Of a stretch of DNA of 64,000 nucleotides, positions 3,038 to 64,000 are shown one piece after another. Origin of the DNA: Arthrobacter sp. QXT-31 (GTDB taxonomy: Bacteria > Actinomycetota > Actinomycetes > Actinomycetales > Micrococcaceae). Position numbers and translations under genes: made by a program. The stretch spans positions 4,154,001-4,218,000 of the forward strand of contig NZ_CP019304.1 in assembly GCF_001969265.1 (NCBI RefSeq). The letters are read 5' to 3'. The notes beneath the pieces are model-generated. The model made no database searches. It had not been told where the DNA came from and saw only the letters and a list, made by a program, of their open reading frames with translations. The stretch's first letter is position 1, and every line of letters starts with the position of its first letter.

Positions 3038-3315
3038 TGATGCCATCCCCACGCCGCCTATCCAAGTAGTTCTAGGTACAACCGGGCTACGGGGCCGATA
3101 CCACCAAGTAGAAGGCCTCAGAATAAGGCGTAGTGACTACTCGGGACTGCCGCAGGACCGAACCCTACCCTGAGATTGCAAGCAGACTGCCGGCATTTTC
3201 GGAAGTATTCATCGCTCTCTCTTCCACCGTTTGGTGTCTTCAGCCAGTGGTTCGTTGAGACGGAATGCCGCGAACGATCCCGTCAGTTTGGTCCAGCGGT
3301 ATGGAGGTACACGAA

Positions 3316-4038: not shown

Positions 4039-4111
4039 CTGGTAGCGGTTTGAGGGTGCCACGTTGCTGGGCGTGGCGCCTTCCTATCCGATTCCCGGCA
4101 GAGGAGGGGCC

Positions 4112-4879: not shown

Positions 4880-4898
4880 AGCGCCCAACATTCCTGTT

Positions 4899-4914
4899 GT
4901 CTGAATAATGAGAC
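4899..4914. promoter_or_regulatory. candidate LtbR/NdgR-type operator upstream of leuB
   Basis: The dyad GTCTGAATAATGAGAC sits 3 bp before a TTGACC -35 box. Apart from a one-base gap it matches the dyad upstream of leuC (18706-18722): GTCT[GC]AATA..TGAGA[CT]GC. Confidence 0.55.
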
Positions 4915-4917
4915 GCT

Positions 4918-4948
4918 TTGACCAGAATGTGGATGGTTTGGCTACGCT
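4918..4948 (+). promoter_or_regulatory. leuB promoter, possibly leaderless
   Basis: TTGACC (4918-4923) and TACGCT (4943-4948) are separated by 19 bp. The -10 box ends 6 nt before the leuB ATG and no convincing ribosome binding site is present, so transcription may start at the ATG. Confidence 0.5.
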
Positions 4949-4954
4949 GAAAGT

Positions 4955-6007: not shown

Positions 6008-6107
6008 CCTCCGCCAGCAGGCGTAAGCTTGACCTGAATTACCAATCGCTGCCGTGGTCCGACGCTGAACCACCTTCAGATGCCAGGCAGCCGACCGTGG
6101 AGGAACC

Positions 6108-7220: not shown

Positions 7221-7240
7221 GGCTTTTAGCGAGCGGTTAT

Positions 7241-7303
7241 AGAACGACGGCGGGTGGCCGGCTGGGCTGTTTTGGCAGCCCACCGGCCGCCCGCCGTCGT
7301 TCT
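7241..7303 (+). terminator. long hairpin after ilvE
   Basis: AGAACGACGGCGGG (7241-7254) pairs with its exact complement (7290-7303), and the interior also pairs (TGGCCGG with CCGGCC, GGGCTG with CAGCCC). There is no clean T-run, only a short T-rich stretch downstream, so termination is likely but not certain. Confidence 0.7.
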
Positions 7304-7347
7304 TGTGCCATTTTGTCCGGCTGTATCCGGTGGTACCGGATGACAGA

Positions 7348-8154
7348 ATGAAACCTGTGAATCAGGACATGTCCACTGCATTTACCCGCAGCAGCCCGCT
7401 GACCCGCTTCCGCCTCGCGCCCAATTCGGGCCCGATGAGCCTCGAGGGGACCAACTCCTACGTCGTCGGGGAACCTGGCCATGGGGCCGTGGTGATGGTT
7501 GATCCTGGTCCCCTGGACGAAACCCATCTCCAGGCGCTCGCGGCAGCCGGGCCGGTGGAGCTCATCCTGGTCACGCACCGGCACGCGGACCACACCGCCG
7601 GTTCGGCCCGCCTTGCAGAAATCACCGGCGCGCCCGTCCGTGCCGCCGCCCGCGAGCACTGCCATGGGGGAAGCACGCTGCAGGCGGGGGAGACCATCGC
7701 CGCCGGCGGAACCGAGATCCGGGTGGTTTCCACACCCGGGCACACCTCGGACTCCGTCTGCTTCCACCTTCCCCTCGACGGACCTGCCGGTTCCGTGCTG
7801 ACCGGTGACACGATCCTGGGCCGGGGAACCACCGTCCTGGATCACCCGGACGGCACGCTGGCCGACTACCTCGCCTCACTCGACCGGCTGGAGCAGCTGG
7901 GGCCCGCCACGGTCCTGCCTGCCCACGGCCCTGTCCTGCCCGCCCTCGACGCAGTGGTCCGCGCCTACCGGGACCATCGGCTGGACCGGCTGGCGCAGAT
8001 CCGTACTGCTCTCGCCGGCCTCGGCCCTGACGCCGGAGTGGGCGAGGTCACCAGCGTTGTCTACGCCGACGTCGACCCTTCCGTGCGGCGCGCCGCAGAG
8101 AATTCCGTGGCGGCGCAGCTGCAGTACCTTCGCTTCCTGAGTGGGCGAGGCTGA
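7348..8154 (+). CDS. MBL-fold metallo-hydrolase (LACTB2-like)
   Basis: A cytoplasmic metal-dependent hydrolase of about 268 residues. The zinc-binding HxHxDH motif reads THRHADHTAG, followed by a conserved His in STPGHTSDS, the bridging Asp in LTGDTILG and a C-terminal LPAHGP. The arrangement matches the LACTB2/RNase Z-like branch of the beta-lactamase superfamily; the substrate is unknown. The start is uncertain: ATG 7348, GTG 7357 and ATG 7369 are all possible and none has a strong ribosome binding site. The FAH-family gene follows after 18 bp. Confidence 0.85.
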   Translation: MKPVNQDMSTAFTRSSPLTRFRLAPNSGPMSLEGTNSYVVGEPGHGAVVMVDPGPLDETHLQALAAAGPVELILVTHRHADHTAGSARLAEITGAPVRAAAREHCHGGSTLQAGETIAAGGTEIRVVSTPGHTSDSVCFHLPLDGPAGSVLTGDTILGRGTTVLDHPDGTLADYLASLDRLEQLGPATVLPAHGPVLPALDAVVRAYRDHRLDRLAQIRTALAGLGPDAGVGEVTSVVYADVDPSVRRAAENSVAAQLQYLRFLSGRG

Positions 8155-8159
8155 GACTG

Positions 8160-8165
8160 TAGGCT
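8160..8165 (+). promoter_or_regulatory. -10 box of probable leaderless transcript (FAH-family gene)
   Basis: TAGGCT ends 7 nt before the ATG at 8173 and no ribosome binding site lies between them. Confidence 0.45.
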
Positions 8166-8172
8166 TGGGGCC

Positions 8173-8949
8173 ATGCGTATTGCCCGGTTTGTAGTCGATT
8201 CTGATCCCCTTTACGGCGTTGTTGAAGGCCAGCCCGGCAGTGAGGAAATCACTGTCATCAACGGCGACCCGTTCTTCAACGGCGTGGAACGCACTTCGGT
8301 GCGGCACAAGCTGGAGGATGTCCGCCTGCTGGCGCCCATTATTCCGCGCAGCAAGGTCATCGGCGTGGGCCGGAACTTTGTGGAGCACGCCCACGAGCTC
8401 GGCAATGAGGTGCCCCAGCAGCCGCTGCTGTTCCTGAAGCCCAACACGTCCGTGGTTGGCCCGAACGATCCTGTTGTCCTCCCCGAGTTCTCCGAGGAGG
8501 TCTCCTTCGAGGCGGAGTTATGCGTCGTCATCGGCCGCATCTGCAAGGACGTGCCGGAAGACCGAGTGGACGACGTCATCTTCGGGTACACCTGCGGCAA
8601 CGACCTCACCGCCCGCGACGTGCAGAAAACCGACCTCCAGTGGGCCCGCGCCAAGGGCTTCGACACGTCCGCGCCCCTGGGACCATGGATCGAAACCGAC
8701 CTCGATCCGGAGGACCTGTCCATCAAGGGCCGGCTCAACGGTGAACTTCGCCAGGACGGCAGCACCACCCAGATGATCCGCGGCGTCCGCGAACTGGTCT
8801 CCATCGTCTCCAGCGCGTTCACGCTGCTGCCCGGCGACGTCATCATGACCGGCACGCCGGCGGGCGTCGGCCTCGTCCAGGCCGGCGACCGGTACGAAGT
8901 GGAGATCGAGGGCATCGGCCGTTTGTCGAACCCCGTGGTCCGCCGCTAG
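8173..8949 (+). CDS. fumarylacetoacetate hydrolase family protein
   Basis: A 258-residue enzyme of the FAH superfamily, whose members hydrolyse or decarboxylate oxo-diacids or hydrate dienoates using Mg2+. The metal-site acidic residues are visible in FEAELCVVIG and NDLTARDVQ, and the C-terminal PGDVIMTGTPAGVG is the family hallmark. The N-terminal 60 residues form the small cap domain of the FahA/HpcE-like group. The neighbours (MBL hydrolase, gltX) give no pathway. Candidate roles include oxaloacetate decarboxylase or acylpyruvase, which sequence alone cannot separate. Confidence 0.9.
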   Translation: MRIARFVVDSDPLYGVVEGQPGSEEITVINGDPFFNGVERTSVRHKLEDVRLLAPIIPRSKVIGVGRNFVEHAHELGNEVPQQPLLFLKPNTSVVGPNDPVVLPEFSEEVSFEAELCVVIGRICKDVPEDRVDDVIFGYTCGNDLTARDVQKTDLQWARAKGFDTSAPLGPWIETDLDPEDLSIKGRLNGELRQDGSTTQMIRGVRELVSIVSSAFTLLPGDVIMTGTPAGVGLVQAGDRYEVEIEGIGRLSNPVVRR

Positions 8950-9004
8950 CCGTACCCACCCGGGGACGGCGCAGGGGTAGCCGGTTGGTAAAGTTGGTAT
9001 CACT

Positions 9005-10516
9005 ATGACTACCCCCTCCGCCGCTCCTGCTGCCATCCCTGCCGTCACCGCCGAAACGCCCGTTCGCGTCCGCTTCTGCCCGTCTCCCACGGGCACCCCG
9101 CACGTCGGGCTGATCCGCACGGCGCTGTTCAACTGGGCCTATGCCCGCCACACAGGCGGCAAGATGATTTTCCGCATCGAGGACACCGACTCGGCGCGCG
9201 ACAGCGAGGAAAGCTACCACCAGCTGCTGGACGCCCTGAAGTGGCTCGGCATCGACTGGGACGAGGGCGTCGAGGTGGGCGGGCCGCACGAACCGTACCG
9301 CCAGTCGCAGCGGAGCGAGCTGTACCAGGATGTCATCGCCAAGCTCAGGGCAGGCGGCCACATCTACGAGTCCTACTCGACCCCTGACGAGATCGAAGCG
9401 CGCCACCGGGCCGCCGGCCGGGACCCCAAGCTGGGCTATGACGGGTTTGACCGTGACCTCAGCGAGGAACAGGTCGCTGCCTTCAAGGCCGAGGGCCGGG
9501 AAGCGGTACTGCGGCTGAGGATGCCGGACGAGGACATCACGTTCACCGACCTGGTCCGGGGCGAGATCACGTTCAAGGCCGGCTCTGTGCCGGACTTCGC
9601 CGTGGTGCGGGCTAACGGCGCACCGCTGTACACCCTGGTCAACCCGGTGGACGATGCCCTCATGGGCATCACCCACGTCCTTCGCGGCGAGGACCTGCTG
9701 AGCTCCACGCCGCGCCAGATCGCCCTGTACCGGGCGCTGTATGCGGTGGGTGTGGCAGAGTACATGCCGGAGTTCGGCCACCTGCCTTACGTCATGGGCC
9801 AGGGCAACAAGAAGCTGTCCAAGCGCGACCCGGAATCGAGCCTGTTCCTGCACCGGGAACGCGGCTTCATCCCCGAGGGCCTGCTGAACTACCTGTCTCT
9901 GCTGGGCTGGTCCCTGAGCGCCGACGAGGACATCTTCACGGTGGACCAGATGGTGAAGAACTTCGACATCCACGACGTCCTGGCCAACCCGGCCCGCTTC
10001 GACCTCAAGAAGGCCGAAGCGATCAACGGAACGCACGTCCGGCTGCTGGACCCCGCGGTCTTCCGCGAAAGGCTGGTCCCGTACCTCCGCCACGAGGGCC
10101 TGGTGGGGGAGATTCTCACCGACCGCCAGGAGGAGATCCTGACCGAAGCCGCACCGCTCGTCCAGGAACGGATCACCCTGCTCGGCGAAGCTCCGGAGAT
10201 GCTGGCTTTCCTCTTCAAGTCTGACGACCAGATCGACGTCGCCGCTGACGCCCGCAAGGGCCTGCCGGAGAACGTCACCGAGGTCCTCGAGGCGGCGCTG
10301 GCAGCCCTCGAACCGATCAGCGACTGGAACGCAGAGAACATCCAGTCCGCCCTGAAGCAGGCGTTGGTGGAGGACTTGGGTATCAAGCCGCGGCTTGCGT
10401 TCGGTCCAGTGCGCACTGCGATCTCCGGCCGCCGGATCTCCCCGCCGCTCTTTGAGTCCATGGTCATCCTGGGCAAGGACTCGTCTCTGGCGCGCCTGCG
10501 CGCTTTCCGCGGCTGA
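9005..10516 (+). CDS. gltX: glutamyl-tRNA synthetase
   Basis: A class I synthetase that charges tRNA-Glu, and in actinobacteria also tRNA-Gln before GatCAB amidation. The 503 residues contain the modified HIGH motif [17 protein letters not shown] and the KMSKS equivalent KLSKR at 270-274. The anticodon-binding domain follows. Strikingly, the tRNA-Gln and tRNA-Glu genes are only 0.9 kb downstream. TAAAGT lies 10 bp before the ATG, again with no clear ribosome binding site. The stop overlaps the next start (TGATG). Confidence 0.97.
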
Positions 10517-11268
10517 TGTCACACCCTGCAGCCGAAACCGCTGTCCTTTCACCTGGCCTCGGGGCAGTCAGCGGTGTCCTGTTCGACATCGACGACACGC
10601 TGGTGGACCTTGCCTACGCCATGACCACGGCGCTGCGGGACGCCAGCGAACACCTCCTGCCCGGCCTCGACCAGGCCGGGTGGGACCGGGTGGGGCGGAT
10701 CTTCACGCACGAGACGACCCACTACTACGACCGCTACCTTGCCGGCGAGTTGACGTTCAATGAGCAGCGGCTGCTCCGGGGCCGTGCGGCCCTGGGGCAC
10801 TTCGGCGTCGAGATGGGCGAGGGGGAGGAAGCGCATAACTGGCTCAGCACCTATGCACGGTTGCAGCCCAGCTATGTTCGGGCCTTTGAGGACGTCGTGC
10901 CGCTTCTCGACGCCCTGGACCAGGCGGGCATTCCCTACGGGGCTGTGAGCAACAATGTGCACGACTACCAGCGGGCAAAGCTGGACAGTGCCGGACTGGA
11001 ACGGATCCGGTTCCTCGTGGGCACGGACACGGTGGGTGTTCCCAAGCCGGACCCGGCCATCTACCTCGAGGGTGTCCGGCTGATCGGCAGCACTCCTGCC
11101 ACCACTCTGTATATCGGGGACAACCGGCTTCTGGACGCTGAGGGCTCGACGGCGGCAGGACTGTCGGGCATCTGGCTGAACCGCGGCGGGGAACAGGCCC
11201 CTGGTTTCCAGGGGCAGGAAGTCGCCTCCCTGCTGGAACTCCTGGCGCTGCCTGCCGGCTCCAGCTAG
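10516..11268 (+). CDS. HAD-family hydrolase
   Basis: A 250-residue haloacid dehalogenase-type phosphatase. Motif I is FDIDDTLVD with nucleophile Asp24 and acid/base Asp26. A helical cap follows, then motif II near VSNN, motif III Lys in GVPKPDPAIYL and motif IV YIGDNRLLDAEGS. The layout is that of subclass IA phosphatases acting on small phosphorylated metabolites; the substrate is unknown. It is translationally coupled to gltX by a 1-bp overlap. Confidence 0.9.
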   Translation: MSHPAAETAVLSPGLGAVSGVLFDIDDTLVDLAYAMTTALRDASEHLLPGLDQAGWDRVGRIFTHETTHYYDRYLAGELTFNEQRLLRGRAALGHFGVEMGEGEEAHNWLSTYARLQPSYVRAFEDVVPLLDALDQAGIPYGAVSNNVHDYQRAKLDSAGLERIRFLVGTDTVGVPKPDPAIYLEGVRLIGSTPATTLYIGDNRLLDAEGSTAAGLSGIWLNRGGEQAPGFQGQEVASLLELLALPAGSS

Positions 11269-11338
11269 CCGGTTGGGTCCGTTGCCTGCTCCCGCTTGAG
11301 GCGTTCAGAAAGTGTGGCGCAGGTAACGGCCTGCCGAT

Positions 11339-11367
11339 TTGTGCGGCGCAAAAGTCTCGGGTAGAGT
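11339..11367 (+). promoter_or_regulatory. promoter for the tRNA-Gln/tRNA-Glu unit
   Basis: TTGTGC and TAGAGT are spaced by 17 bp, about 65 bp upstream of tRNA-Gln. This is a good SigA-type match in otherwise GC-rich DNA. Confidence 0.6.
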
Positions 11368-11431
11368 AATTACTCGTGCTGAGGGGCACGGAGCGAAAGA
11401 TAAAGACTTTCCACCGGCCCGAAAGTGCCAA

Positions 11432-11503
11432 TGGGATATGGTGTAATTGGCAACACTACGGTTTCTGGTACCGTCATTCTAGGTTCGAGTCCTGGTATCC
11501 CAG
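11432..11503 (+). tRNA. tRNA-Gln (anticodon CTG)
   Basis: Cloverleaf: acceptor TGGGATA pairs with TATCCCA, D-stem GTGT with ACAC, anticodon stem ACGGT/ACCGT around loop TTCTGGT (anticodon CTG), and T-arm CTAGG-TTCGAGT-CCTGG. The 3' CCA is not encoded. Confidence 0.96.
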
Positions 11504-11602
11504 CTCTGGATTTCTCCGGATTTTCCGAAGAATTTCAGGTGTTGCGAATCGAAAATCATCGATTTGGAACAAAGCCAAATGTGTGAAACACTAACTTGGC
11601 TT

Positions 11603-11622
11603 GATCAGCGGAAACGCTGATC
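11603..11622 (+). other. perfect GNRA-tetraloop hairpin between the two tRNAs
   Basis: GATCAGCG-GAAA-CGCTGATC forms an 8-bp perfect stem with a GAAA tetraloop, 11 bp before tRNA-Glu. It lacks a T-run, so it looks like an RNA structural or processing element rather than a terminator. Confidence 0.6.
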
Positions 11623-11633
11623 GGAAAGTACGC

Positions 11634-11706
11634 GGCCCCATCGTATAGCGGCCTAGTACGCCGCCCTCTCACGGCGGTAACGCGGGTTCGAATCCCGCTG
11701 GGGTCA
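11634..11706 (+). tRNA. tRNA-Glu (anticodon CTC)
   Basis: Acceptor GGCCCCA pairs with TGGGGTC (one G-T wobble), discriminator A. Anticodon stem CCGCC/GGCGG encloses CTCTCAC, giving anticodon CTC. The T-arm is GCGGG-TTCGAAT-CCCGC. CCA is not encoded. Confidence 0.96.
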
Positions 11707-11711
11707 CAAGC

Positions 11712-11747
11712 AACCGGCTCCGGGCAACAGCCCGGGGCCGGTTTTGT
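11712..11747 (+). terminator. intrinsic terminator of the tRNA unit
   Basis: AACCGGCTCCGGGC-AACA-GCCCGGGGCCGGTT forms a 14-bp stem with a G-T pair and a tetraloop, followed by TTGTGTT. It begins 6 bp after tRNA-Glu. Confidence 0.85.
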
Positions 11748-11768
11748 GTTGCCTGAATTTGTATGGTC

Positions 11769-11858
11769 TGTTCTGTGGTTCTGCTCTGTACTGTGGCTCC
11801 ACTCTGTTCGGTGGCTCCACTCTGTCCTGTGGTTCCGCTCTGTTCGGTGGTCCTGAAC
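11769..11858 (+). repeat. five imperfect 18-bp tandem repeats
   Basis: Units follow TGT[TAC]C[TG]GTGG[CT]TCC[AG]CTC: 11769-11786, 11787-11804, 11805-11822, 11823-11840 and a diverged 11841-11858. They fill the gap between the tRNA terminator and the dynamin-like gene. The array is open in frame with that gene (period 6 codons, Cys/Val/Pro/Leu rich), but the ORF start inside it is unlikely to be used. Confidence 0.85.
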
Positions 11859-11891
11859 CCCAAAACACATCTGAACTGGCATGATGAGGCT

Positions 11892-13688
11892 GTGACCTCC
11901 AACCGGATCCCGCCAGCCAGCGGCCAGGACATGGAAACGCAGCCTGCCGGCGTGCGCCTCCTCGAGGAGGTCCGCCGCAACCTGGCAGATGTCACGCTGC
12001 CGCTGGCGCTGCCGACGGCCGACCAGGCACGGCTGGAGATCCGGAACTCCGTGGCCCAGCTCGATGACTACATCCTGCCCCGCTACCGCAGCCTGGACGC
12101 CCCGCTGCTGGCCGTCGTCGGCGGTTCAACGGGCGCCGGCAAATCAACTCTCGTGAACGCGCTCGTGGGCCATCCCGTAACGCGTGCCGGGGCCATCCGG
12201 CCCACCACCCGGCAGCCCATCCTGCTGCACCATCCCTCGGAAGCCGCCTGGTTCGAGGACCAGCGGGTACTGCCCGGCCTCAGCCGGATCCGCGGAACCG
12301 TAGTCCCGGCCGCTGTCCCGGCCCTCCCAAACCGCCAGCCGGCCGGGCAGGCCGGGCCGCCGTCGGACTCTGCTCCCGTCTCGTCGCTGGTCCTGGTAGG
12401 CGAACCAGCCGTGCCCGAAGGCATTGCACTGCTGGATGCGCCCGACGTCGACTCCATCTCCGACGAGAACCGCAGGCTCGCCGGGCAGTTGCTGGCGGCC
12501 GCCGACCTCTGGATCTTCGTGACCACCGCCAACCGGTACGCCGACGCCGTCCCATGGAAGCTGCTGCTGAACGCGGCATCGCGGGACATCATGGTGGCGG
12601 TGGTCCTCGACCGTGTGCCGCCGGCCGCTGAAGCGGAAGTGCGCGAGGACCTGCGCAGCATGCTGGCGCGGGAGGGCTTGGGCGCCGCGCGCCTCTTCGT
12701 CATTCCGGAAGTCGTGCTCGGCAGCGCCGGCATGCTTCCGGCGGAAACCGTGCAGCCGCTGAAAGCCTGGCTGCGCGGCCTTGCCGAAGATGCGGCGGCC
12801 CGCGCCGACATCGCAAGGCGGACGCTGCATGGTGCTGTACGAGAGCTGGGCCAGCGTGTGGCGCACATCGCCGAAGCCGCCGGGGAACAGGGCCGCGCCG
12901 CCACCCTGCTGGGTGATGACGTGCGGGCCGCCTACCAGGATGCGGGCACACGGATCATCGACGCCACCAAAGACGGTGCCCTCCTCCGTGGCGAGGTCCT
13001 GGCCCGCTGGCAGGACTTCGTGGGAACGGGCGAGTTCTTCCGCAGCCTGGAGCAGAACGTGGGGCGGTTCCGCGACCGCCTGGGCGCATTCTTCCGCGGC
13101 GAGCCTGCGCCGGCAGTGAAAGTGGAAACCGCCATTGAAACAGGCCTCCAGGCGGTCATCCTGGATGAGGCTGCCAAGGCAGCGGAGGACGCAGACCAGC
13201 GTTGGCGCTCGGATCCGGCGGGCCGGCAGCTCCTGGGCACGGACGACCTCTCCGGAACGGGTCCCGGCTTTGGGGACCGCGTGGCGGCGGAAATACGCGA
13301 CTGGCAGGCTGGGCTGATGGAACTGATCAGGACCGAAGGCCAGGACAAGCGGACCCAGGCGCGGTGGCTGTCCTTTGGCATCAACGGCCTCGGTGCAGCC
13401 CTGATGATTGTGGTTTTTTCCATGACGGCCGGGCTGACCGGCCTGGAGATCGGCGTCGCCGGGGGCACCGCGGTGGTGGGGCAGAAACTGCTGGAAGCCG
13501 TCTTCGGCGAGGACGCCGTACGCCGGCTCGCCCACACCGCCCGCGACGACCTGAGCAGCAGGTGCCGAAACCTGCTGGCGGCGGAGCAGGAGCGGTTCCT
13601 GGAGAGGCTGGACGCGGACGCCGGGAAGGCCGCCGTCGAGCTCGCCGAGCATGCACGGGCGCTGACGCGGTTGGCGGACGCCACGTGA
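11892..13688 (+). CDS. dynamin-like GTPase, first of a pair
   Basis: A large GTPase of about 598 residues. The G1 P-loop GGSTGAGKS lies near residues 77-85, a G2-type Thr segment RPTTRQP follows, and LLDAPDVDS is the G3 motif. The C-terminal half is helical with a hydrophobic segment near residues 495-540 (INGLGAALMIVVFSMTAG), which suggests membrane contact. Pairing with a second GTPase that overlaps it by 4 bp resembles the DynA/DynB bacterial dynamins of Streptomyces, involved in division-site membrane remodelling; assignment by arrangement is inference. Start GTG 11892 (GAGG nearby) is my choice; ATG 11931 is possible. Confidence 0.85.
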   Translation: MTSNRIPPASGQDMETQPAGVRLLEEVRRNLADVTLPLALPTADQARLEIRNSVAQLDDYILPRYRSLDAPLLAVVGGSTGAGKSTLVNALVGHPVTRAGAIRPTTRQPILLHHPSEAAWFEDQRVLPGLSRIRGTVVPAAVPALPNRQPAGQAGPPSDSAPVSSLVLVGEPAVPEGIALLDAPDVDSISDENRRLAGQLLAAADLWIFVTTANRYADAVPWKLLLNAASRDIMVAVVLDRVPPAAEAEVREDLRSMLAREGLGAARLFVIPEVVLGSAGMLPAETVQPLKAWLRGLAEDAAARADIARRTLHGAVRELGQRVAHIAEAAGEQGRAATLLGDDVRAAYQDAGTRIIDATKDGALLRGEVLARWQDFVGTGEFFRSLEQNVGRFRDRLGAFFRGEPAPAVKVETAIETGLQAVILDEAAKAAEDADQRWRSDPAGRQLLGTDDLSGTGPGFGDRVAAEIRDWQAGLMELIRTEGQDKRTQARWLSFGINGLGAALMIVVFSMTAGLTGLEIGVAGGTAVVGQKLLEAVFGEDAVRRLAHTARDDLSSRCRNLLAAEQERFLERLDADAGKAAVELAEHARALTRLADAT

Positions 13689-15938: not shown

Positions 15939-17765
15939 CTACGGCGCCGGGCCGTCGTCTTCGATGTGGTGAGCTTCGCGAAGCCCCGCTCCAACGCGTC
16001 TGGTTCCGGTCAGACTGGCCAGCCTGGTTCCGGGTAGCGGGGGTGCGGTGGATTGGTAGGTGTGGCCGGTCGGTGTGGTGATTTCGATGGTGTGTCTTGG
16101 TCCTGGTCTGGGTTGGGCTTTCCAGCCGGGGAGTTCTTTGGTGTGGTTGCAGGCTTCGCAGAGTCCGGTGCCGTTGGCGAGGCTGGTTGGGCCGTCGTTG
16201 TGCCAGGGGACGATGTGGTCTAGGTGTCGGATGGGTGCGTCGCAGTAGGGGGTGCGGCAGGTGTCGTCGCGGACCTGGATGAAGCGGCGCAGCGGTGGCG
16301 GGAAGAGCCGCCGTTTCGAGTCCATGGCGACCAGGTCGCCGGTGTCCGGGGCGGTGTAGAGCCGGCGCAGCCAGATCCTCAGGTCTTTCACGGCGCCGTT
16401 CCGGCGGATCACCGCGTCCTTCTTGCCTGTATTCGAGCCGGACGCGTTTGAGCTGCCAGTGTTTGGCTGGAGGGGCTGCTGCGCTACTTGTTCCTGGTTG
16501 AGGAGTTCCTGGGCCCAGGCTGCGGGGACGATGCCGTAGCCGGTGAGCCTTGCAGGTTCGCTGTCCCCCTGGAGGAGGGTGCGGTCGGTCATGACGAGGT
16601 TGACCTCGACGCCGGTAATGCCGCCGGGGGTGCCGGTGGTCCACTCGACGAGGGTGTCGGCCATGGCCTGGTTCCGGGAGCGTGGGTCCCCGGCGGAGCG
16701 GAGGGCGTCGGCCTGCCGGGTGAGTGCCGCATACACGGCCACGCCTTGGTGGGCGGGCAGCAGGGCTGTCAGGTACGTCATGCAGTCCGGGGCCGGGCGC
16801 AAACTCACGCTCCGCTCGGACGCGGCGTGGCTGGCCCGCTGGGTGACCGAGCGCGGGTCACGCCGGGTGGCGGCGGCCTTGACCGCGGCGATGACGCCGC
16901 GGGTCCCCACCCCGTCGAAGGTCCCGGTATCGGCGGCGAGTTCCTCATCGACCGCGGCCCGGTCCTCCACCGTCAGGACGGCCGTTTCCTTCACGACATA
17001 CATGGCCTTTTCTTCATTCAGCAGGCCGGTATCCAATGCACCGAGGGTGTGCGGCATCTCAATGACCAGGGCCTTCGCCATGCCCAGCAGCCGGCCGCCA
17101 CGGTGCGGGGACTCACCCCGGGCCAGCGCGATCTGCTCGGCCACACCCAGGGAGTGTTCCTTGGGCCGCTTCTTGCCCAGGTCCTCGGCCGAGAGGGTGC
17201 TGCTTGTGGCCAGCCCGGAAGCGGCCTGCGCCGGACCGTTCACGGTCGCGGGTCCGGCCTGTTCCTGCCGCTGTCTGGCTTCGAACTCGACGGCCAGCCG
17301 GGCCTGCTGCCCTGTGGCCCAGCGTTTGAATTTCTCCAGCACCGTGGTCTGGTCCATCAGCCCGGGACCATCGGTGCTGAGATCGGCCCGCAACAGCGTC
17401 TTTACCGTCCCGACCCGGTCGTCGACACCCAGCCCAGGTGTAGGAGCGGCGTCGGCACCGGAGGCCGCGCCACTGGCGGTGGGGGCGTCCGTGAACAGGT
17501 GGTCCCTGGAAAGGAGCTCGGGGAACGGGGCATCAAGGAGCTCGGGGAACGGGTCCTCCGGAAAAACCCCGTCCTCATACTCCCCGCCGGGGAAAGGGTC
17601 CTCCGGATACGCGGAGTCCGGATCAGCGCCGTAGGGAAATTCGTCGCCGGCGAAGCCCTCAAAGGGAAAAACCTCTTCGGAGAACCAGCCGTCGGGAACG
17701 GTGTCGCCAGGCAGCCCGCCGGCACGCGTGGCCGGTGCTGCTGCTGAGTTCCCGAGAACCTCCAT
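15939..17765 (-). CDS. DUF222 / HNH endonuclease domain protein
   Basis: About 608 residues. The acidic N-terminus is rich in repeated (E/D)xFP and PFPELL units (roughly residues 25-90) and probably disordered. A DUF222 helical region follows, and the C-terminal HNH domain shows CRTPYCDAPIRHLDHIVPWHNDG and GLCEACNHTK split by the metal-binding loop, with catalytic-type His in LDHIVPWH. Such proteins occur in many dispersed copies in actinobacteria; their role is not established. The start is uncertain: ATG 17765 is chosen, GTG 17813 is also open, and neither has a good ribosome binding site. Confidence 0.88.
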   Translation of the reverse strand: MEVLGNSAAAPATRAGGLPGDTVPDGWFSEEVFPFEGFAGDEFPYGADPDSAYPEDPFPGGEYEDGVFPEDPFPELLDAPFPELLSRDHLFTDAPTASGAASGADAAPTPGLGVDDRVGTVKTLLRADLSTDGPGLMDQTTVLEKFKRWATGQQARLAVEFEARQRQEQAGPATVNGPAQAASGLATSSTLSAEDLGKKRPKEHSLGVAEQIALARGESPHRGGRLLGMAKALVIEMPHTLGALDTGLLNEEKAMYVVKETAVLTVEDRAAVDEELAADTGTFDGVGTRGVIAAVKAAATRRDPRSVTQRASHAASERSVSLRPAPDCMTYLTALLPAHQGVAVYAALTRQADALRSAGDPRSRNQAMADTLVEWTTGTPGGITGVEVNLVMTDRTLLQGDSEPARLTGYGIVPAAWAQELLNQEQVAQQPLQPNTGSSNASGSNTGKKDAVIRRNGAVKDLRIWLRRLYTAPDTGDLVAMDSKRRLFPPPLRRFIQVRDDTCRTPYCDAPIRHLDHIVPWHNDGPTSLANGTGLCEACNHTKELPGWKAQPRPGPRHTIEITTPTGHTYQSTAPPLPGTRLASLTGTRRVGAGLREAHHIEDDGPAP

Positions 17766-57636: not shown

Positions 57637-58308
57637 ATGTCCGTTGCACCCACCCTTGACTACGAGAAGCGCTTCCTGCCCCGCGGTGCGCGGTTCCTGG
57701 CCGGCGTCGACGAGGTAGGCCGCGGCGCCCTTGCCGGGCCGGTAAGTGTGGGAATCGCCGTCGTGGACCTGCAGAACATGGAACTGCTCGCCGACGTCCG
57801 GGACAGCAAACTGCTCAAGGCGGCGGACCGCGAACGCCTGGATCCCCTGGTGCGGGCCTGGAGCGTTGCCTCCGCCGTCGGACATGCCAGTGCCCGGGAA
57901 ATCGATGAACTCGGCATCATGGGCGCCCTCCGGACCGCCGGGAACAGGGCCTGGTTTGCGATCCTCGGCGCCGGCATCACCCCTGACGTCGTCCTGCTCG
58001 ACGGCAGCCACAACTGGCTGTCACCCGCCGTCCAGCCCTCCCTGTTCGATGAGGTCGTGGTGGATCCCGGGTGCGACGCGCCGGTCCATACGCTCGTCAA
58101 GGCCGACATGCAGTGCCTCAGCGTCGCTGCCGCGAGCGTCCTTGCCAAGGTCCAACGGGACCGCACCATGCAGTCGCTGCATCTTGAGTTCCCGGACTTC
58201 GGCTGGGACGTCAACAAGGGCTACGGCACCTCCGCCCACCGGGAGGCCATCCGGACCCGCGGCCCCAGCCCCTATCACCGGGTGAGCTGGAACCTGCTGA
58301 CCGAGTAG
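57637..58308 (+). CDS. rnhB: ribonuclease HII
   Basis: Removes RNA primers and misinserted ribonucleotides, 223 residues. The catalytic Asp-Glu pair is in [14 protein letters not shown]; other acids occur in LLDGSHNWL and [18 protein letters not shown] 57637 is 2 bp after lepB. Confidence 0.96.
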
Positions 58309-58369: not shown

Positions 58370-58696
58370 ATGAGTGCCGAAGACCTTGAGAACTATGAGA
58401 CCGACATGGAGCTCCAGCTCTACCGGGAGTACCGCGACGTCGTGGGTCTGTTCAGCTATGTGGTCGAGACCGAGCGGCGCTTCTACCTCGCCAACCACGT
58501 GGACCTGCAGGCGCGCAGCGCCGACGGTGAGGTGTATTTCGACCTCACGCTCCAGGATGCCTGGGTCTGGGATGTCTACCGTTCAGCGCGGTTCGTGAAG
58601 AGCGTCCGGGTCATCACGTTCAAGGACGTCAACGTCGAGGAACTGCCGCGCAACGAGGAACTCGCGCTGCCCAAGGACGTCGACCTCGGCAACTGA
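58370..58696 (+). CDS. DUF2469 domain-containing protein
   Basis: A 108-residue protein of DUF2469, found only in actinobacteria between rnhB and yraN. It begins MSAEDLENYETDMELQLYRE and has a conserved aromatic core (VWDVYRSARFVKSVRV). Its function is unknown. A CAAGAT box six bases before ATG 58370 and the lack of a ribosome binding site suggest a leaderless start. Confidence 0.92.
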   Translation: MSAEDLENYETDMELQLYREYRDVVGLFSYVVETERRFYLANHVDLQARSADGEVYFDLTLQDAWVWDVYRSARFVKSVRVITFKDVNVEELPRNEELALPKDVDLGN

Positions 58697-58834
58697 GGCT
58701 GTTGCTGCTATTTCTGGCTTCGACTGTTCCTCCACACGCGGTCTTTCCCCGATATTCTCCCGGCCTTTCCACATAGCCCAATAGCAGGCTGTTCCGCATG
58801 ACCCGGCCCCCGCAGGCTGGATGCGGAGGTGGAC

Positions 58835-59191
58835 ATGAAAGCCAAGGACATGCTGGGCCGGCGCGGGGAAGAGCTCGCGGCCGAATACCTGGAATCACTG
58901 GGAATGCTGATCGTGGAGCGCAACTGGCGCTGCCCCGACGGCGAAATCGACATCGTCGCCCTGGACGGCGATGCCCTCGTGATTGCAGAGGTGAAAACGC
59001 GGCGCTCACTCGCCTACGGTCACCCGTTCGAAGCGGTGGGCCCGGACAAGCTCGCCCGCCTGCACCGCCTGGGTTCGGCCTGGTGCCGGGACCATGGGCT
59101 GCAGCTGCCCCTGCGCCGGGTGGACGTTATTGCCGTGCTGGACGACGGCGTTGGCGAACCAACCGTTGAGCACCTCAAGGAGGTGCTGTGA
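58835..59191 (+). CDS. YraN/UPF0102 family nuclease-like protein
   Basis: A 118-residue protein with a restriction-endonuclease-like core: GRRGEELAAEYLESLG, then EIDIVALDGDALVIAEVKTR (Asp, then Glu-x-Lys). The function is unproven but the fold is that of Holliday-junction-resolvase-like nucleases. GGAGG at 58825-58829 serves ATG 58835. The stop overlaps the first base of yifB. It usually forms rnhB-DUF2469-yraN-yifB-dprA. Confidence 0.93.
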   Translation: MKAKDMLGRRGEELAAEYLESLGMLIVERNWRCPDGEIDIVALDGDALVIAEVKTRRSLAYGHPFEAVGPDKLARLHRLGSAWCRDHGLQLPLRRVDVIAVLDDGVGEPTVEHLKEVL

Positions 59192-59886
59192 TGGCCCTGG
59201 GGAGAGCCTATTCGGTGGCCCTCGTGGGCCTGAACGGTTACATCGTGGAGGTCGAGGCCGACATCGGCCAGACCCTGCCGGCATTCGTGCTTCTCGGCCT
59301 CCCCGATGCTTCCCTCAACGAAGCCAGGGACCGCATCCGCTCGGCGGCGCAGAACTCCGGCATTCCGCTGAGCCGGCGGAAGATCACCGCCAACCTTATT
59401 CCGGCGTCGCTTCCCAAGCGCGGTTCCGGTTTCGACCTTGCCATCGCGATGTCGGTGCTGCGGGCAGCGGAGGATATCAGGCCAACGGGGCGCACCGTCT
59501 TCATCGCCGAACTGGGACTGGACGGCCGGCTCAGGCCTGTCCGCGGAATCCTTCCGGCCGTGATGTCCGCGGTGCAGGCGGGGTTCCACGACATTGTGGT
59601 TGCCCAGGCGAATGTCGCCGAGGCGGAGCTCGTCCCCGGCGCCAGGGTCCTGGGCTACCGGACCCTGGCGCAGCTGGTGTTCGATTTCGGGGCTGACCCG
59701 CAGGACCTTGTCCTTGACTTCGACCCGGAAGAGGATTCAGGCGGGACCGAGCCGGTGTCCGTGGACACGCCCGTCCCGGACATGTGTGACGTGTCCGGCC
59801 AGGCGGAAGCGCGCTGTGCCCTTGAGGTGGCCGCGGCCGGCGCCCACCATCTGCTGCTGATGGGCCCGCCGGGTCTATGTCCTTAA
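59191..59886 (+). pseudogene. yifB/comM-type AAA ATPase, truncated by insertion in the P-loop
   Basis: The N-terminal 228 residues are those of the YifB/ComM magnesium-chelatase-like ATPase (LPAFVLLGLPDASLNEARDR, RKITANLIPASLPKRGSGFD). The family has about 510 residues. Homology runs to HHLLLMGPPG, where the P-loop should continue GAGKT, but the sequence changes to LCP-stop. The break is at about 59873. AAGGAGG 6 bp before ATG 59191 shows the 5' end is intact. The remainder of the gene is absent from the window. ComM acts as a helicase in natural transformation in Gram-negatives; loss here would remove ATPase activity. Confidence 0.9.
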
Positions 59887-59946
59887 CCATGTATGCGCGG
59901 AGCAAACGAGCGGTATCCGACTTGCCGTCAAACATGCGCGCGACAC

Positions 59947-60057
59947 TCATCGGGGAAGCAGCGCCTGCCCGAACCCGGCCGAGTTGCTGCGGTGAGGAAG
60001 TTTGTAGCGGGGGTTGACGGCGGAGAGCCAGTGTGGAAGGTCGTGTTCGCGGGCCAT
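59947..60057 (-). pseudogene. fragment resembling an APC-family amino acid permease
   Basis: A 36-codon stretch reads MAREHDLPHWLSAVNPRYKLPHR, like the loop of APC permeases (ARxxxLPxWLxxVxPRxxxPH), then loses similarity and stops. The flanking DNA is not open in one frame. It is followed, overlapping by ATGA, by a frame MSVARMFDGKSDTARLLRAY running into the island junction, which I do not recognise. The rest of 59887-60240 holds nothing I can identify. Confidence 0.4.
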
Positions 60058-60240
60058 GGGCAGGCTGGTCCGCCCCAGCCCGCCCGATGAGAGCCCAGCA
60101 GGGCTACTGCTCGGGAGAGCACCGTGAATGGAACGGGAAGCACTAACAGTGCACCACCAACATCAAAGGCCAGACGATTGGCCACGCTGTCTAAGGGGCG
60201 TATTAGCGCGCCCTCCGCGTTTCGTCAGGCCGCTGATCCG

Positions 60241-60390
60241 TCAGGTGAACCTATCCCCTTGAAGCCTAAGCGCGACCCACAGGCCGCATCGCCGGCAGAT
60301 GTAGGAGTGTTCGGGTCCGAGGGCGTGCAGTCTTTTGCGGGGCATGGTTCGGCCGCAGCAGGAGCAGGTGTATTTGTCGTCCGCTTTCAT
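60241..60390 (-). CDS. 49-residue CxxC zinc-ribbon-like mini-protein in the mer operon
   Basis: A small open frame starting 35 bp after merB on the same strand. It has two cysteine knuckles, C9-x-C11-C12 and C32-RR-C35 (CSCCGR and CRRCG), a basic middle (PRKRLH) and a KADDKYT start. The layout is a short treble-clef or zinc-ribbon, a plausible metal-binding (possibly mercury-binding) protein. GAGGGAAG is about 12 bp upstream. I know no named family for it. It was below the usual size cutoff for gene calling. Confidence 0.55.
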   Translation of the reverse strand: MKADDKYTCSCCGRTMPRKRLHALGPEHSYICRRCGLWVALRLQGDRFT

Positions 60391-60425
60391 TGTTCTTGAC
60401 CGCTTCCCTCACGTGCCTCCGCGTT

Positions 60426-61079
60426 TCAGCAGCTGCAGCTTTGCAGGCCGTTCGCGGGTTTGCCGGTGGGCTGGGCGAGCAGCTGTTCGGCCATGGCGGA
60501 GGCGAGCCGGTAGGCCTCCTCGACGGGGATCACGGTGCCGTCGGGGTGCTTCTCCAGCCACGGCATGGCTTCTTCCGGTGAGGCGAAGAAGTGGACCTGG
60601 TTGCAGAAGGACGAACGGACAGAGCCGATGTTCTCCGGGTTGACCAGTGAGACCACGGCGGTGGCAGGCTCAACGCTGGTGACACCGAAACTGTCGACAC
60701 TCACCCGAACGGGATTACCGGTGGATTTGTAGGTCGATTCGATCTGTGCCGGAGCGCCAAGGAGGGTGGGGAAGATCAGGGTGTCCAGTGCGCACCAGGT
60801 GTAGAGCTGTTCGCCGTCCACTTCGAAGTGGTGCTGGGTGGGGCGCTGGGTGAGTCCCTGTCCGACGATCCGGCCTGAGCCGTCGTATTCGGTGTCCGCC
60901 ATGGCATGCAGGGCGGTGCGGATTTCCTCGATGGTTCGGTCTGTGGCCGCCGCAAGAGTGGCCGTGTCGACGGGCTCGCCTTGAGCGAGGAGTTTCAGCA
61001 GCGGAAGCCACAGCCAGGGTTCCATGCCGGTTTCGGATGAGGCGAGGCGCCCGGTGACCTGGTTGACGTCGTTCGTCAT
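60426..61079 (-). CDS. merB: organomercurial lyase
   Basis: Cleaves carbon-mercury bonds of organomercurials, releasing Hg(II) for MerA. The 217 residues have all three catalytic residues at the canonical numbers: Cys96 and Asp99 (WCALD) and Cys159 (FCNQVHFFAS). AAGGAA lies 6 bp before the ATG. It is 44 bp downstream of merA in the same direction. It ends with Cys-rich CSC, unusual but not informative. Confidence 0.95.
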   Translation of the reverse strand: MTNDVNQVTGRLASSETGMEPWLWLPLLKLLAQGEPVDTATLAAATDRTIEEIRTALHAMADTEYDGSGRIVGQGLTQRPTQHHFEVDGEQLYTWCALDTLIFPTLLGAPAQIESTYKSTGNPVRVSVDSFGVTSVEPATAVVSLVNPENIGSVRSSFCNQVHFFASPEEAMPWLEKHPDGTVIPVEEAYRLASAMAEQLLAQPTGKPANGLQSCSC

Positions 61080-61123
61080 TGTCGTTCCTTTGAGTGTCAG
61101 TGGCGGTGGGGTAGCTGAAGGGG

Positions 61124-62566
61124 TCAGGAGGCACAGCAGGAAAGTTTGGAGACGTCGGTGCTGAATGACTGGGCCGCGATTTTGATGCCTTCGGCCATGG
61201 TCAGATAGGGGCTCCAGAGGTTCGCCACCTGTTCGACGGTCATTCCGGCTTCAAGGATGTAGACGCCGGCCCCGGCCAGGTTCCCGGCTTCCTTGCCGAC
61301 CGCGGTGATTCCCACGATCTTTCCGGAGGCGTGGTCGGCGACTATTTTGATGAAACCGCGGGTGTCGCGGTCCACGAGAGCGCGGGGAACGTATTCCAGC
61401 GGCAGGACCCGGCATTCGCAGCGGATACCGGCGTCCAGGGCTTCCTTGTCGGTCATGCCGACAGCCGCCAGCGCCGGGCTGGTGAACGTGACACGCGGCA
61501 GGTGCCGGTAGTCCACTTCGCTCCCGGCGTCGTTGAAGGCGTTTTCCACCATGATGGATCCATGGGCGGCGGCGACGTAGACGAATTCGCGGTGCCCGGT
61601 CACGTCTCCAGCGGCCCAGATCCGAGGGTTGGAGCTGACGAGCGTGTTCTGGACCAGGACCTCGCCGCGGTCTCCGGTTTTGACCCCGACAGTGTCCAGG
61701 TTCAGGCCCTCGGTGACGGCGCGGCGGCCGGTGGCGACCAGCAGTTTCGTTGCCCGAAATTCCTCCTGGCCTCCGTCGATGGTGGCTGTGGCGATCACTT
61801 CTTCCGCGCCGGGGTCCGTGCGGACGGAGGTCACGGCCGCGCGCCGGACTACGCGGATGCCCTCGTCGGAGAAGACTCCCATTAGGGCACGGGAGGCTTC
61901 GGGTTCCTCTGCGGAAGCGAGGCGGGTACGGACCAGCATGGTCACCTTGGATCCGAGTCGGGCGAAGAGTTGTGCCTGTTCCAGGGCGACGTAGCCGCCG
62001 CCGAAGACGAGCAGGGACTCGGGCACTTCCTCCAGTTCCATGGCGGTGGTGGAGGTCAGGTAGTCCGCGTCCTGCAGGCCCTCTACCGGCGGCGCCCAGG
62101 GGCTCGATCCGGTGGCGACGAGGTAGTGGGCGGCGCGGACCTCGCTGCGGGCACCGTCGGGGCCAGTGACTTCCAGGACCGGTTCCTCGGGGGTGCCGGC
62201 GAACGCGGCGGTGCCTTCCCGCAGTTCCCAGCCGTACTCCCCGACCAGGTCCAGGTATTTGTCCGAGCGCATGGTCTGGACCAGGGACCGTTTGCCGTTG
62301 ATGAGTTCCCTCATGTCCACGGGCCCGGCCGAGGTGCTGATGCCGGGGAATCTGGCGTGCGCCTCGAGCGCCACGTGGCGGGCTTCGGCGACGGCCAGCA
62401 GGGCCTTGGAGGGGATGCATCCGGTGTTCACGCAGGTTCCGCCGACGGTGGAACGTTCGATCATCAGGACGCGCTTGCCGAGGTTGGTGGCCCGGATGGC
62501 GGCGGCGAAGGCGCCGCCTCCGGAGCCGATAACGGCCAGATCAAAGTCCGTTGCTGCATCAGGCAT
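61124..62566 (-). CDS. merA: mercuric reductase
   Basis: FAD- and NADPH-dependent reduction of Hg(II) to volatile Hg(0). The 480 residues contain the FAD motif VIGSGGGAFAAAIRA, the redox pair Cys45 and Cys50 (GTCVNTGCIPSK) and the C-terminal Cys477-Cys478 pair (LSCCAS) that delivers Hg to the active site. No N-terminal HMA domain is present, as in other actinobacterial enzymes. GGAGG is about 6 bp before ATG 62566. The operator-promoter region separates it from merR. Confidence 0.97.
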   Translation of the reverse strand: MPDAATDFDLAVIGSGGGAFAAAIRATNLGKRVLMIERSTVGGTCVNTGCIPSKALLAVAEARHVALEAHARFPGISTSAGPVDMRELINGKRSLVQTMRSDKYLDLVGEYGWELREGTAAFAGTPEEPVLEVTGPDGARSEVRAAHYLVATGSSPWAPPVEGLQDADYLTSTTAMELEEVPESLLVFGGGYVALEQAQLFARLGSKVTMLVRTRLASAEEPEASRALMGVFSDEGIRVVRRAAVTSVRTDPGAEEVIATATIDGGQEEFRATKLLVATGRRAVTEGLNLDTVGVKTGDRGEVLVQNTLVSSNPRIWAAGDVTGHREFVYVAAAHGSIMVENAFNDAGSEVDYRHLPRVTFTSPALAAVGMTDKEALDAGIRCECRVLPLEYVPRALVDRDTRGFIKIVADHASGKIVGITAVGKEAGNLAGAGVYILEAGMTVEQVANLWSPYLTMAEGIKIAAQSFSTDVSKLSCCAS

Positions 62567-62637
62567 GGATCCTCCATTGAGTCTTCAGTGAGTGCGCCCG
62601 GCAGGCGCATCGTCCTTAGGGTTAGGATGTTGGTTTC

Positions 62638-62669
62638 AGTCTGCACCTTCCCCTAAGCTGGAAGGTCAA
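62638..62669 (-). promoter_or_regulatory. MerR-type promoter/operator of merAB
   Basis: On the minus strand, TTGACC (62664-62669) is followed by a 19-20-bp spacer and CAGACT/GCAGAC. The spacer contains the dyad ACCTTCC-N8-GGAAGGT (62645-62666). Overlong spacing with a dyad between -35 and -10 is the mark of MerR-activated promoters. Confidence 0.8.
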
Positions 62670-62752
62670 GAGCCCATGGCACCCCCAAAGCCTTCCCTGA
62701 AAAGTGGAGGGTTACTGGAGGGCTTTCCAGCGACCTGAAGGAAGGATTCACA

Positions 62753-63142
62753 ATGCGCATCGGTGAAGCTGCAGCCGCCGCGGGCCTGACGACCAAGACG
62801 ATCAGGTTCTATGAGGGCCGTGGTCTGCTCCCGCCCGCTGAACGCGCGGCCAACGGCTACCGGGACTACGCCCACGACACCGTCAGCCGCCTTGAATTCA
62901 TTCGCCGCAGCCAGGTGGCCGGGCTGACCCTGGCGCAAATCCAGGACATCCTGAGGATCCGGGACGCCGGCTCCACGCCGTGCTTCCATGTCCGGGACGT
63001 GCTGGCACGGCAACTGACGGACCTGGATCGCCAGATCACCGAGATCACAGCCCTTCGGGCCACCGTTGCGCAATACCATGCAGCCGCCGAGTCGGCGGAT
63101 CCGGAATCCTGCGATCCGGAACGGATTTGCAGTTACCTCTGA
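62753..63142 (+). CDS. merR: MerR-family metal-responsive regulator
   Basis: A 129-residue regulator with an N-terminal winged helix (RIGEAAAAAGLTTKTIRFYE) and a dimerisation helix. Cys77, Cys120 and Cys126 correspond to the Cys82, Cys117 and Cys126 ligands of MerR, although the spacing of the last pair is shorter (6 rather than 9). Cys at the first position indicates a divalent-metal sensor. It is divergent from merA, with the mer operator between. GGAAGGA lies about 7 bp upstream of ATG 62753. A ZntR/CadR-like specificity cannot be excluded by sequence. Confidence 0.88.
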   Translation: MRIGEAAAAAGLTTKTIRFYEGRGLLPPAERAANGYRDYAHDTVSRLEFIRRSQVAGLTLAQIQDILRIRDAGSTPCFHVRDVLARQLTDLDRQITEITALRATVAQYHAAAESADPESCDPERICSYL

Positions 63143-63252
63143 GCGGCTGGTCCTCCGCAGGAAGCCTGGCCTAGGATGAGCACGGTGACGAGCCGGAACC
63201 TCATCGCATAGAGGGGCTGTCGCCGCCGGAAGACCGTTTCACCGCCAAGGAT

Positions 63253-63812
63253 GTGGACAGTTGTTGGAATCCGACAAACTGTGATGGTTGCGTAGACCAA
63301 GTGAGGCGGGCTAATGCCGCCGCATGGTCTCCTGTTGTCGTTCACGGCGTTTACGTCCGTATCTATTTTCCCGATGTTGACGCCATTCTCTCGGCTAGGC
63401 ACGAGCGCCAGGTCCAGGCCCACCTGGAACAACTGGCCCAGGTCCGGCACAGCGCCGACAGCCCTGAGCGGCAGCTCGAAGCCGTGCTGCAGACATATGC
63501 CATGATTTCCTACTCACGCCATGCAGGGGCAGAGGCAGCGCGGCTGCACCAGAGCCAACATGTGAGCCAGGCCCAGAAGCATCTCAACGAATTCCTCACG
63601 GAGCTGCTGCGCGACGGCGCTGAGGAAGGGGTTTTCGGCGACGATGTCGCCCCCGACGAGCTCGCCGGCTACTGTCTGCACGCCTTGGGGCGGCGGCCGT
63701 GCTGACGTCCCGCGAAGCCGCCCAGCGGCTGGTCAAAGTCACGATCAGCGGATTGCAACCACCGGCGGGGACATCGCATCCGGGACTGCAGGGGAGAGCA
63801 GCTGGCAGGTAG
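63253..63812 (+). pseudogene. TetR-family regulator, frameshifted remnant
   Basis: From about 63350 the frame reads YFPDVDAILSARHERQVQAHLEQLAQVR, ordinary for the end of a TetR HTH and the start of its ligand domain, but the first HTH helices are missing. It runs to YCLHALG, then hits TGA at 63705. In the next frame the family continues as AAVLTSREAAQRLVKVTISGL to TAG at 63812, which a one-base deletion in the GGGG run at 63687-63690 would explain. A 6-bp dyad ACAGTT-N14-AACTGT (63257-63282) precedes the homologous part. Confidence 0.65.
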
Positions 63813-64000
63813 CGCCCGGCCGGCAGCCGGCAACGGCGGTCCGGCCGTCTTTACCTGGTGTCTCACCCCATCGCAGTCAGGAGCGCGGCGCAAAATGTGC
63901 TGCCACTGGATGCCACTGCCGGTGCCGAAGAAGCTCCGGTTGAGCAGCAGCTGCACCCGGCAGCGGAAGAAACAAGGGGAAACCCGGCTCTGTCTTTTTG
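63813..64000. other. no identifiable feature
   Basis: The last 188 bases of the island have no ORF with recognisable similarity and no clear promoter or repeat. Confidence 0.6.

Follow-up and report, generated by a model that had tools for sequence, protein, structure and literature searches.

Judged by its sequence context across genomes, the P-loop of yifB is a genuine docking site for transferable DNA in the Arthrobacter group, and in Arthrobacter and Pseudarthrobacter its codons probably act as the attB of accreting mobile elements driven by a serine integrase. The gene is split at the same P-loop codon in 14 of 206 Arthrobacter and Pseudarthrobacter genomes (about 7%), which supports the proposal, made in a sequence-only reading of one such locus, of an island junction that uses the P-loop as attachment site.

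That locus lies in the genome of the soil bacterium Arthrobacter sp. QXT-31 (G000), a single contig of 5.04 Mb, within the window, the whole 64,000-nucleotide stretch analysed (positions 4,154,001–4,218,000). On the plus strand of the window, yifB is preceded by rnhB (ribonuclease HII; 57637..58308; NCBIfam NF000595 above cut-off), a small DUF2469-type ORF (58370..58696) with homologues in other islands, and yraN (58829..59191; NF009154 above cut-off), the conserved order that the sequence-only reading had described. The middle product, named in that reading rather than by a profile, we take to be a DUF2469 family member; a homologue lies 5′ of yifB in seven of nine gene-called islands, the other two stretches beginning further down. 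The yifB ORF (59188/59191–59886) ends in HHLLLMGPPGLCP followed by a stop codon, that is, it passes from GPPG into LCP and a stop, as had been read. Its left part, up to the GPP of the P-loop, occupies 59191..59870 (plus strand) and the frame continues to the stop at 59884–59886. The ORF matches positions 2–221 of the 499-position YifB model TIGR00368 (NCBIfam) with 175 bits, below the whole-protein cut-off of 362 because it is half a protein. The C-terminal half, matching positions 248–497, was found about 70 kb downstream (about 4283892–4284680 of the contig) and is followed by a dprA-like ORF (by reading) and a xerC-like ORF with a PF00589 match. Since the two halves cover 2–221 and 248–497, about 26 codons including Walker A are missing. 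An assembly error at 59873 or a chance frameshift was rejected as exceedingly unlikely: the genome is a single contig, the same junction sequence occurs in other species and the missing half of the gene is present 70 kb further along.

The survey compared an intact YifB with the 206 congeneric genomes, of which 37, chosen by weak or multiple matches, were re-examined; it undercounts yifB breaks near the N-terminus, and the partial yifB genes of G048, G051 and G073 fall outside its classes. The P-loop-split genomes are G000, G041, G066, G141, G004, G058, G107, G111, G114, G119, G177, G186, G189 and G198; the left junction was read in each of them, the right junction in every one but G000 (13 genomes). 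Among six congeners compared, the relatives with intact yifB that the sequence-only reading had asked for were found in G001, G006 and G012, which have one uninterrupted frame of 513–547 aa and no near-identical copy of the recombinase described below, and the three with such a copy (G041, G066 and G141) all have a split yifB. A search for the att motif across the 206 genomes with up to three mismatches matched 75 genomes, against 25 for the reversed control, and single three-mismatch matches therefore mean little; the exact motif, found in four records of wider genome contigs, is too strict as a measure of spread. In G055, G096 and G181, yifB appears in overlapping matches at one place, which looks like frameshifts rather than insertions.

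The crossover point could be read from the variation on either side of a shared CC. The base before this core is G in 7, A in 3, T in 3 and C in 1 of the 14 attL, and G37 T8 A5 C3 in 53 distinct intact hosts; this position, the last of the first Pro codon, is restricted to C (9) and T (4) in the 13 attR. The base after the core is G in all 14 attL, A2 C3 G7 T1 in the 13 attR and G33 C14 T4 A2 in the intact hosts. The host-like variation thus flips side at the CC, and we conclude that host sequence ends and resumes at the CC of the second Pro codon. Calculated by hand, the chance of 13 C or T is about (11/53)^13 = 1e-9 and that of 14 G about (33/53)^14 = 1e-3, figures that assume independence among related hosts and serve as a guide only. 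In the attR of G189 the CC is preceded by CTC, which does not encode Pro, and this codon is therefore element-derived. In the window, host-derived sequence stops at 59868, and the crossover dinucleotide, positions one and two of the second Pro codon in GPPGAGKT, occupies 59869..59870 (plus strand). The element begins at 59871, 2 bp short of the "about 59873" of the sequence-only reading, which had the junction right and its coordinate slightly off. The left half-site of the element, GGGTCTATGTCCTTAACCATGTATGCG (59871..59897, plus strand), is the right arm of attL; its first 21 bases are identical in 6 of the 14 attL, and the half-site differs in the other eight, strongly in some (G114, G189).

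When the host flanks were joined in silico, one YifB frame ran through GPPGAGKT in 10 of 10 islands (G198, G186, G119 and G000, the last without a right site, were left out), with nine frames of 512–514 aa and one of 544 aa in G189, upstream sequence included. These uninterrupted frames indicate a precise integration that can in principle be reversed. No target duplication longer than 2 bp is present, CC being the only bases shared among the 14 attL and 13 attR. A 2-bp overlap without target duplication is the product of serine integrases, and as far as junctions can tell the CC overlap fits such an enzyme, not Tn7. Tn7-like or AbaR/Tn6022-type targeted transposition into comM had been suggested by analogy with Acinetobacter, where AbaR resistance islands occupy comM/yifB, transpose with target duplication and are not known to have a serine integrase core. 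The arrays do share the target gene family and metal-resistance cargo with those islands, but here no 5-bp duplication accompanies the CC, head-to-tail junctions are of the same kind, and no tniA/tnsB-type gene was noticed among the island gene calls (by reading). With only CC shared and a junction that fits a serine integrase, the suggestion was not borne out, and we regard such transposition as very unlikely.

A recombinase at the island had also been anticipated, and a large serine recombinase (LSR) gene (about 590 aa; 589 aa in G000) was found 1.3 kb left of the right yifB half. The protein has the Resolvase, Recombinase and Zn-ribbon domains (PF00239, PF07508 and PF13408), all above cut-offs, and scores 37.7–51.8 bits against the CcrA, CcrB and CcrC models, whose cut-offs are 700–900. 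Its residues 528–575 (L010:7757-9526) give weak, below-cut-off matches to C2H2 zinc fingers, a C-terminal stretch that is, to our knowledge, unusual for an LSR. A protein search of 150 congeneric genomes returned four near-identical LSRs (G000 itself and, at 96%, G041, G066 and G141), the rest being at most 40% identical among the matches listed. Copies at least 95.7% identical to that of G000 are encoded in G041, G066, G141, G177, G189 and G198, all inside P-loop islands. Against PLSDB plasmids the protein matched 40 records, all below 60% identity (19.6–27.4% among the 30 matches listed); in viral contigs no LSR was confirmed and the att motif was found in none.

The LSR is carried by a plasmid-like conjugative element of about 148–172 kb found in half of the split genomes. 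In G189 a single 147.65-kb element with the LSR occupies yifB, the islands of G066, G141, G041 and G177 each end on the right with a homologous element, and G198 has the same right-end sequence and an LSR of 95.9% identity inside its island. Wherever the island is shared, the LSR element is the rightmost unit (G066, G141, G041, G177, the truncated copy in G000 and, by its ends, G198). The G189 element encodes a MobL relaxase (1e-100) and a T4SS coupling protein (T4SS-DNA_transf/TraG-D_C), and the large element also encodes a RecJ-like protein and one with an actin-like match below cut-off; a 20-kb query from the transfer region aligned over 70% of its length with a 639-kb Streptomyces plasmid, at 79% identity. 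An 88.9-kb backbone is 97.8–98.4% identical between G189 and G066, G141, G041 and G177, whose yifB flanks are 71–73% identical to those of G189. This disparity points to recent between-species transfer, and we infer that the large element has spread horizontally between hosts. BREX genes (BrxB, BrxC, PglX, PglZ and BrxL) are encoded in the G066 element near its right end (island positions 194308–206357; L058). The matching region of G041 contains restriction-type genes (by reading).

The complete LSR elements also encode a second candidate enzyme, a 370-aa tyrosine-recombinase-like protein that is 97.6–99.7% identical in all five (G041, G066, G141, G177 and G189) and whose gene, in G041, is about 10 kb away from the right att. 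That this protein, rather than the LSR, integrates the large element at yifB could be argued from its constant presence, its position in G041 and its weak match to PF00589 (26.4 bits, cut-off 27.1), but the match is confined to residues 300–355, the parental sites share 2 bp with differing flanking bases, which a tyrosine overlap of 6–8 bp would tolerate poorly, and the protein is also missing, by tblastn, from the five islands that lack the LSR. We consider this alternative improbable. On the other hand, the presence of the protein counts against the single-LSR explanation, as does the position of the LSR gene, which is not beside an att: its distance to the left att is 10.2 kb in G189, about 13 kb in both G000 and G141 and about 22 kb in G066 (10–23 kb overall, taking the nearest left att found). 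LSR genes are usually adjacent to attP, although this is not strictly required.

The ends of the LSR element look like those of a proper integrase substrate when compared as inverted half-sites, and the right ends of the other units differ. In the single element of G189 the two ends agree at 17 of 27 positions, a figure reached by 2 of 10,000 shuffles for the whole-island left end and by none for the left motif of the last unit itself. In the other LSR elements the nearest left motif agrees with the right end at 18 (G066), 19 (G141) and 15 (G177) of 27 positions (0, 0 and 9 of 10,000 shuffles), and in G041 at 12 of 27 (225 of 10,000). In recombinase-less islands, the left end of the last unit and the right end agree at only 6 (G114), 6 (G111), 7 (G058), 11 (G107) and 13 (G004) of 27 positions, and one enzyme for all right ends is thus unsupported. 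The right ends fall into a few recurring types, that of the LSR element being present at 7 of 13 attR (G041, G066, G119, G141, G177, G189 and G198). Around the core, internal junctions pair at 2–8 of 9 bp, with the best at 8 of 9 in G058 (61168) and G107 (90130); a perfect 9-bp palindrome at the core was rejected as a composite of junctions. At the right ends at G107 23795, G114 39036 and G177 39594 we observed a motif, ACCATGTGTGCG, that resembles the left half-site and lies 5 bp further from the core; the attP and attB of LSRs are described as differing by such a spacing shift.

Most islands are tandem arrays. Eleven were read through (G119, G186 and G198 are not among them) and nine of these are arrays, G004 and G189 appearing to be single-unit; the ten islands complete at both ends span 37.9–208.9 kb. 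The left-end motif recurs beside the core inside the islands of G066 (30,955 and 39,759), G141 (36,749), G041 (37,577 and 47,112), G114 (16,463 and 22,912), G111 (18,166 and 38,455), G107 (23,795, 90,130 and 100,654), G058 (61,168), G177 (39,594) and G000 (54,563). These 15 internal junctions were kept from scans with up to four mismatches, six of them having three or four; the four-mismatch junctions at G066 30955, G114 22912 and G177 39594 were retained, being preceded by a right-end type already known or followed by a continuation of the motif. Another 23 rows, each with four mismatches, were dropped as chance matches; many of them fell on the minus strand or within coding repeats of the large element. 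By reading, the cargo of G107 and G066 includes catabolic genes, some of them monooxygenase-type, and that of G058 metal- and sulfur-related genes; G111 carries CHAT-TPR and glycosylase-like proteins. Array-end DNA had no match among PLSDB plasmids in one search, and in another matched two records covering 6% of the query.

In the window genome the island of about 70 kb consists of a 53.7-kb mercury/copper unit and a stretch of about 16 kb from the LSR element, which includes the recombinase gene. The first unit starts at 59871 (59871..64000 within the window, plus strand, as delimited by gene content and an internal att-like junction) and extends to about 4267565 of the contig, or island positions 875 to about 54,563; the junction at 54563 has three mismatches to the motif and its core is one base out of register. 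Its cargo includes merB (organomercurial lyase; 60426..61079, minus strand; NF009710 and NF033555 above cut-off), merA (mercury(II) reductase; 61124..62566, minus strand; TIGR02053 above cut-off), a MerR-type metal-responsive regulator (62753..63142, plus strand; several MerR-family models, all below cut-off) and copper-resistance genes named by reading of the sequence. A degenerate, partial TetR-like regulator lies at 63253–63705 of the window, and its full version at island positions 16516–17106 (by reading). The remainder of the island (about 54,563–70,889), the left 16.3 kb of the LSR element, aligns to the G141 element in four blocks of 83–96% identity, of which three reach at least 93%. 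The sequence then jumps from the G141 equivalent of 52,955 to that of 197,239, from the element interior into yifB about 76 bp past the core (counted by hand). The comparison with G141 indicates that the right element end and about 76 bp of yifB were removed from the window genome by a later deletion. The rest of yifB, which the sequence-only reading had placed further right, is thus there, but its junction is secondary rather than a clean attR. As the right half-site is gone and Walker A deleted, excision cannot restore yifB in this genome, and its island copy looks locked in. A two-unit array would have formed first, and the remainder of the LSR element would have been lost later together with the yifB bases.

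Five of the 11 islands read through are LSR-less by the following searches. A tblastn search at E up to 1e-4 with a panel of LSR-bearing frames (two members whose longest frame was yifB were excluded) gave no match in the G114, G111, G004, G107 and G058 islands, and the same five islands contain no complete tyrosine integrase (PF00589; one partial match, in G114) and no homologue of the 370-aa protein. In the G111 stretch 24 genes were called, and a Pfam scan of 10 of them revealed no recombinase. PF07508 had no match anywhere in the genomes of G107 (one contig), G058 (two contigs), G119, G013, G187, G171 and G106, among 20 genomes searched. The idea that every array unit carries its own integrase was rejected, none having been found in these five islands. 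G058 contains an IS110-like frame (by reading).

yifB is also broken at other places. A second break, in or close to the Walker B codons (FLDEAPEY, around TTGACGAGGC), occurs in G060, G091, G117, G130, G070, G132 and G153 (L213-L217, L299-L308), with a distinct LSR gene directly beside the right yifB half in G060 and G091; both nucleotide-binding motifs of yifB thus seem to serve as attachment sites. A third break lies near codon 43 (DIGQTLPAF) in G145 (L016, C5) and G125 (L030, C4), where an LSR gene starts at the junction, and the yifB of G172 is also broken near this codon. G198 has a second interruption of about 8.5 kb near codons 80–86 (G198:C44:112509-120999) with another LSR (C44:113060).

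Array-type att junctions were also observed outside yifB in G126 (L203-L206, C42), G003 (L207, C31), G187 (L209), G106 (L199, C38), G013 and G171. An 11,072-bp stretch that starts at the att core is 99.93% identical between the G058 island (1482–12553) and L208 (G013:C12); in G013 it lies outside yifB, which is intact, so that one unit occupies two kinds of site. The junctions of G126 and G003 adjoin the right end of the large element, and these genomes have a different LSR, a frame of 508 aa with about 22% identity, which in G003 lies on a separate contig.

We infer the LSR assignment, above all the action of the enzyme on recombinase-less units, from association and junction form. The LSR would integrate its own conjugative element at the yifB P-loop, and it or a close relative would have moved the recombinase-less units in trans. 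The LSR element could then depart and the recombinase-less units stay behind; its excision would leave LSR-less arrays like those in five other genomes. The LSR-less state of 5 of the 11 islands itself counts against a single LSR, as do the junctions outside yifB that come with a different one. Alternatively, several integrases may share the P-loop site, with units having lost their own integrase genes independently. The breaks of yifB elsewhere (Walker B codons, N-terminus) with adjoining LSR genes, the variable left ends and the recombinase-less right ends, unlike both that of the LSR element and their own left ends, would all fit such a history, but one left-end motif recurs at units whose cargoes are unrelated, both within LSR-bearing arrays and elsewhere, and all 14 genomes share the crossover base pair. 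Because the right ends of the units do not mirror their left ends, we hold the single-LSR explanation and action in trans less firmly and give several integrases more weight, while still judging the latter unlikely.

Parts of this system are already known. Composite islands of the staphylococcal cassette chromosome (SCC) at rlmH are tandem cassettes with ccr-less members, are mediated by LSRs (Ccr) and are not known to inactivate rlmH; the site here is the yifB P-loop, not the rlmH 3′ end, and the LSR is far below the Ccr cut-offs. Durrant et al. (2022; PMC10083194) report that, of the site-specific LSRs they predicted, 12.4% target magnesium-chelatase/ATP-dependent protease homologues. The arrays have in common with those LSRs the target gene family, the PF07508-type LSR and the core dinucleotide; the relevant passages deal with pairs of LSRs and attachment sites, whereas here tandem arrays with recombinase-less units were found. 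A serine recombinase of Wolbachia phage sr1WO integrates in a magnesium chelatase gene, the WO sr1 group being prophages with their own recombinase and without cargo-unit arrays in the available part of that description (PMC9203015). The claim of the sequence-only reading that no equivalent had been described thus holds for this genus in the literature searched, but not for the gene family. In Dehalococcoides, according to McMurdie et al. (2011; PMC3146451), tandem islands at ssrA have a serine recombinase (a CcrB homologue) on some members and no integration module on 15; a single site, recombinase-less members and diverse cargo are common to both systems. There the site is the 3′ end of the tmRNA gene, the repeat is 20 bp long and the integration genes occupy the left edge, whereas in the yifB arrays a protein gene is disrupted, the overlap is 2 bp and the LSR lies 10–23 kb inside a conjugative plasmid-like element. 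No paper describing yifB arrays in Arthrobacter was found among the matches listed, which comprise titles and abstract openings and cover few subscription papers. LSR targeting of the gene family and tandem islands with integrase-less members are therefore known, and the yifB arrays are a variant of these.

In about 7% of the sampled genomes (14 of 206), this docking site is in use, for transferable metal-resistance, catabolic and defence genes, and strictly conserved coding DNA, the Walker A motif, is used as attB across species. From this natural series of junctions one can read the half-sites and core of an LSR family not yet characterised, which is of use for developing tools for Actinobacteria; the arrays also make the movement of recombinase-less units in trans and any cost of YifB loss testable. 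It is possible, and we offer this tentatively, that the arrays are a counterpart of the integron, in which the serine integrase of a conjugative element docks recombinase-less cargo units of about 5–60 kb successively in yifB and then leaves or decays. If so, unrelated species would gather swappable cargo for metal resistance, catabolism and possibly defence, at the cost of a housekeeping gene that is switched off but restorable.
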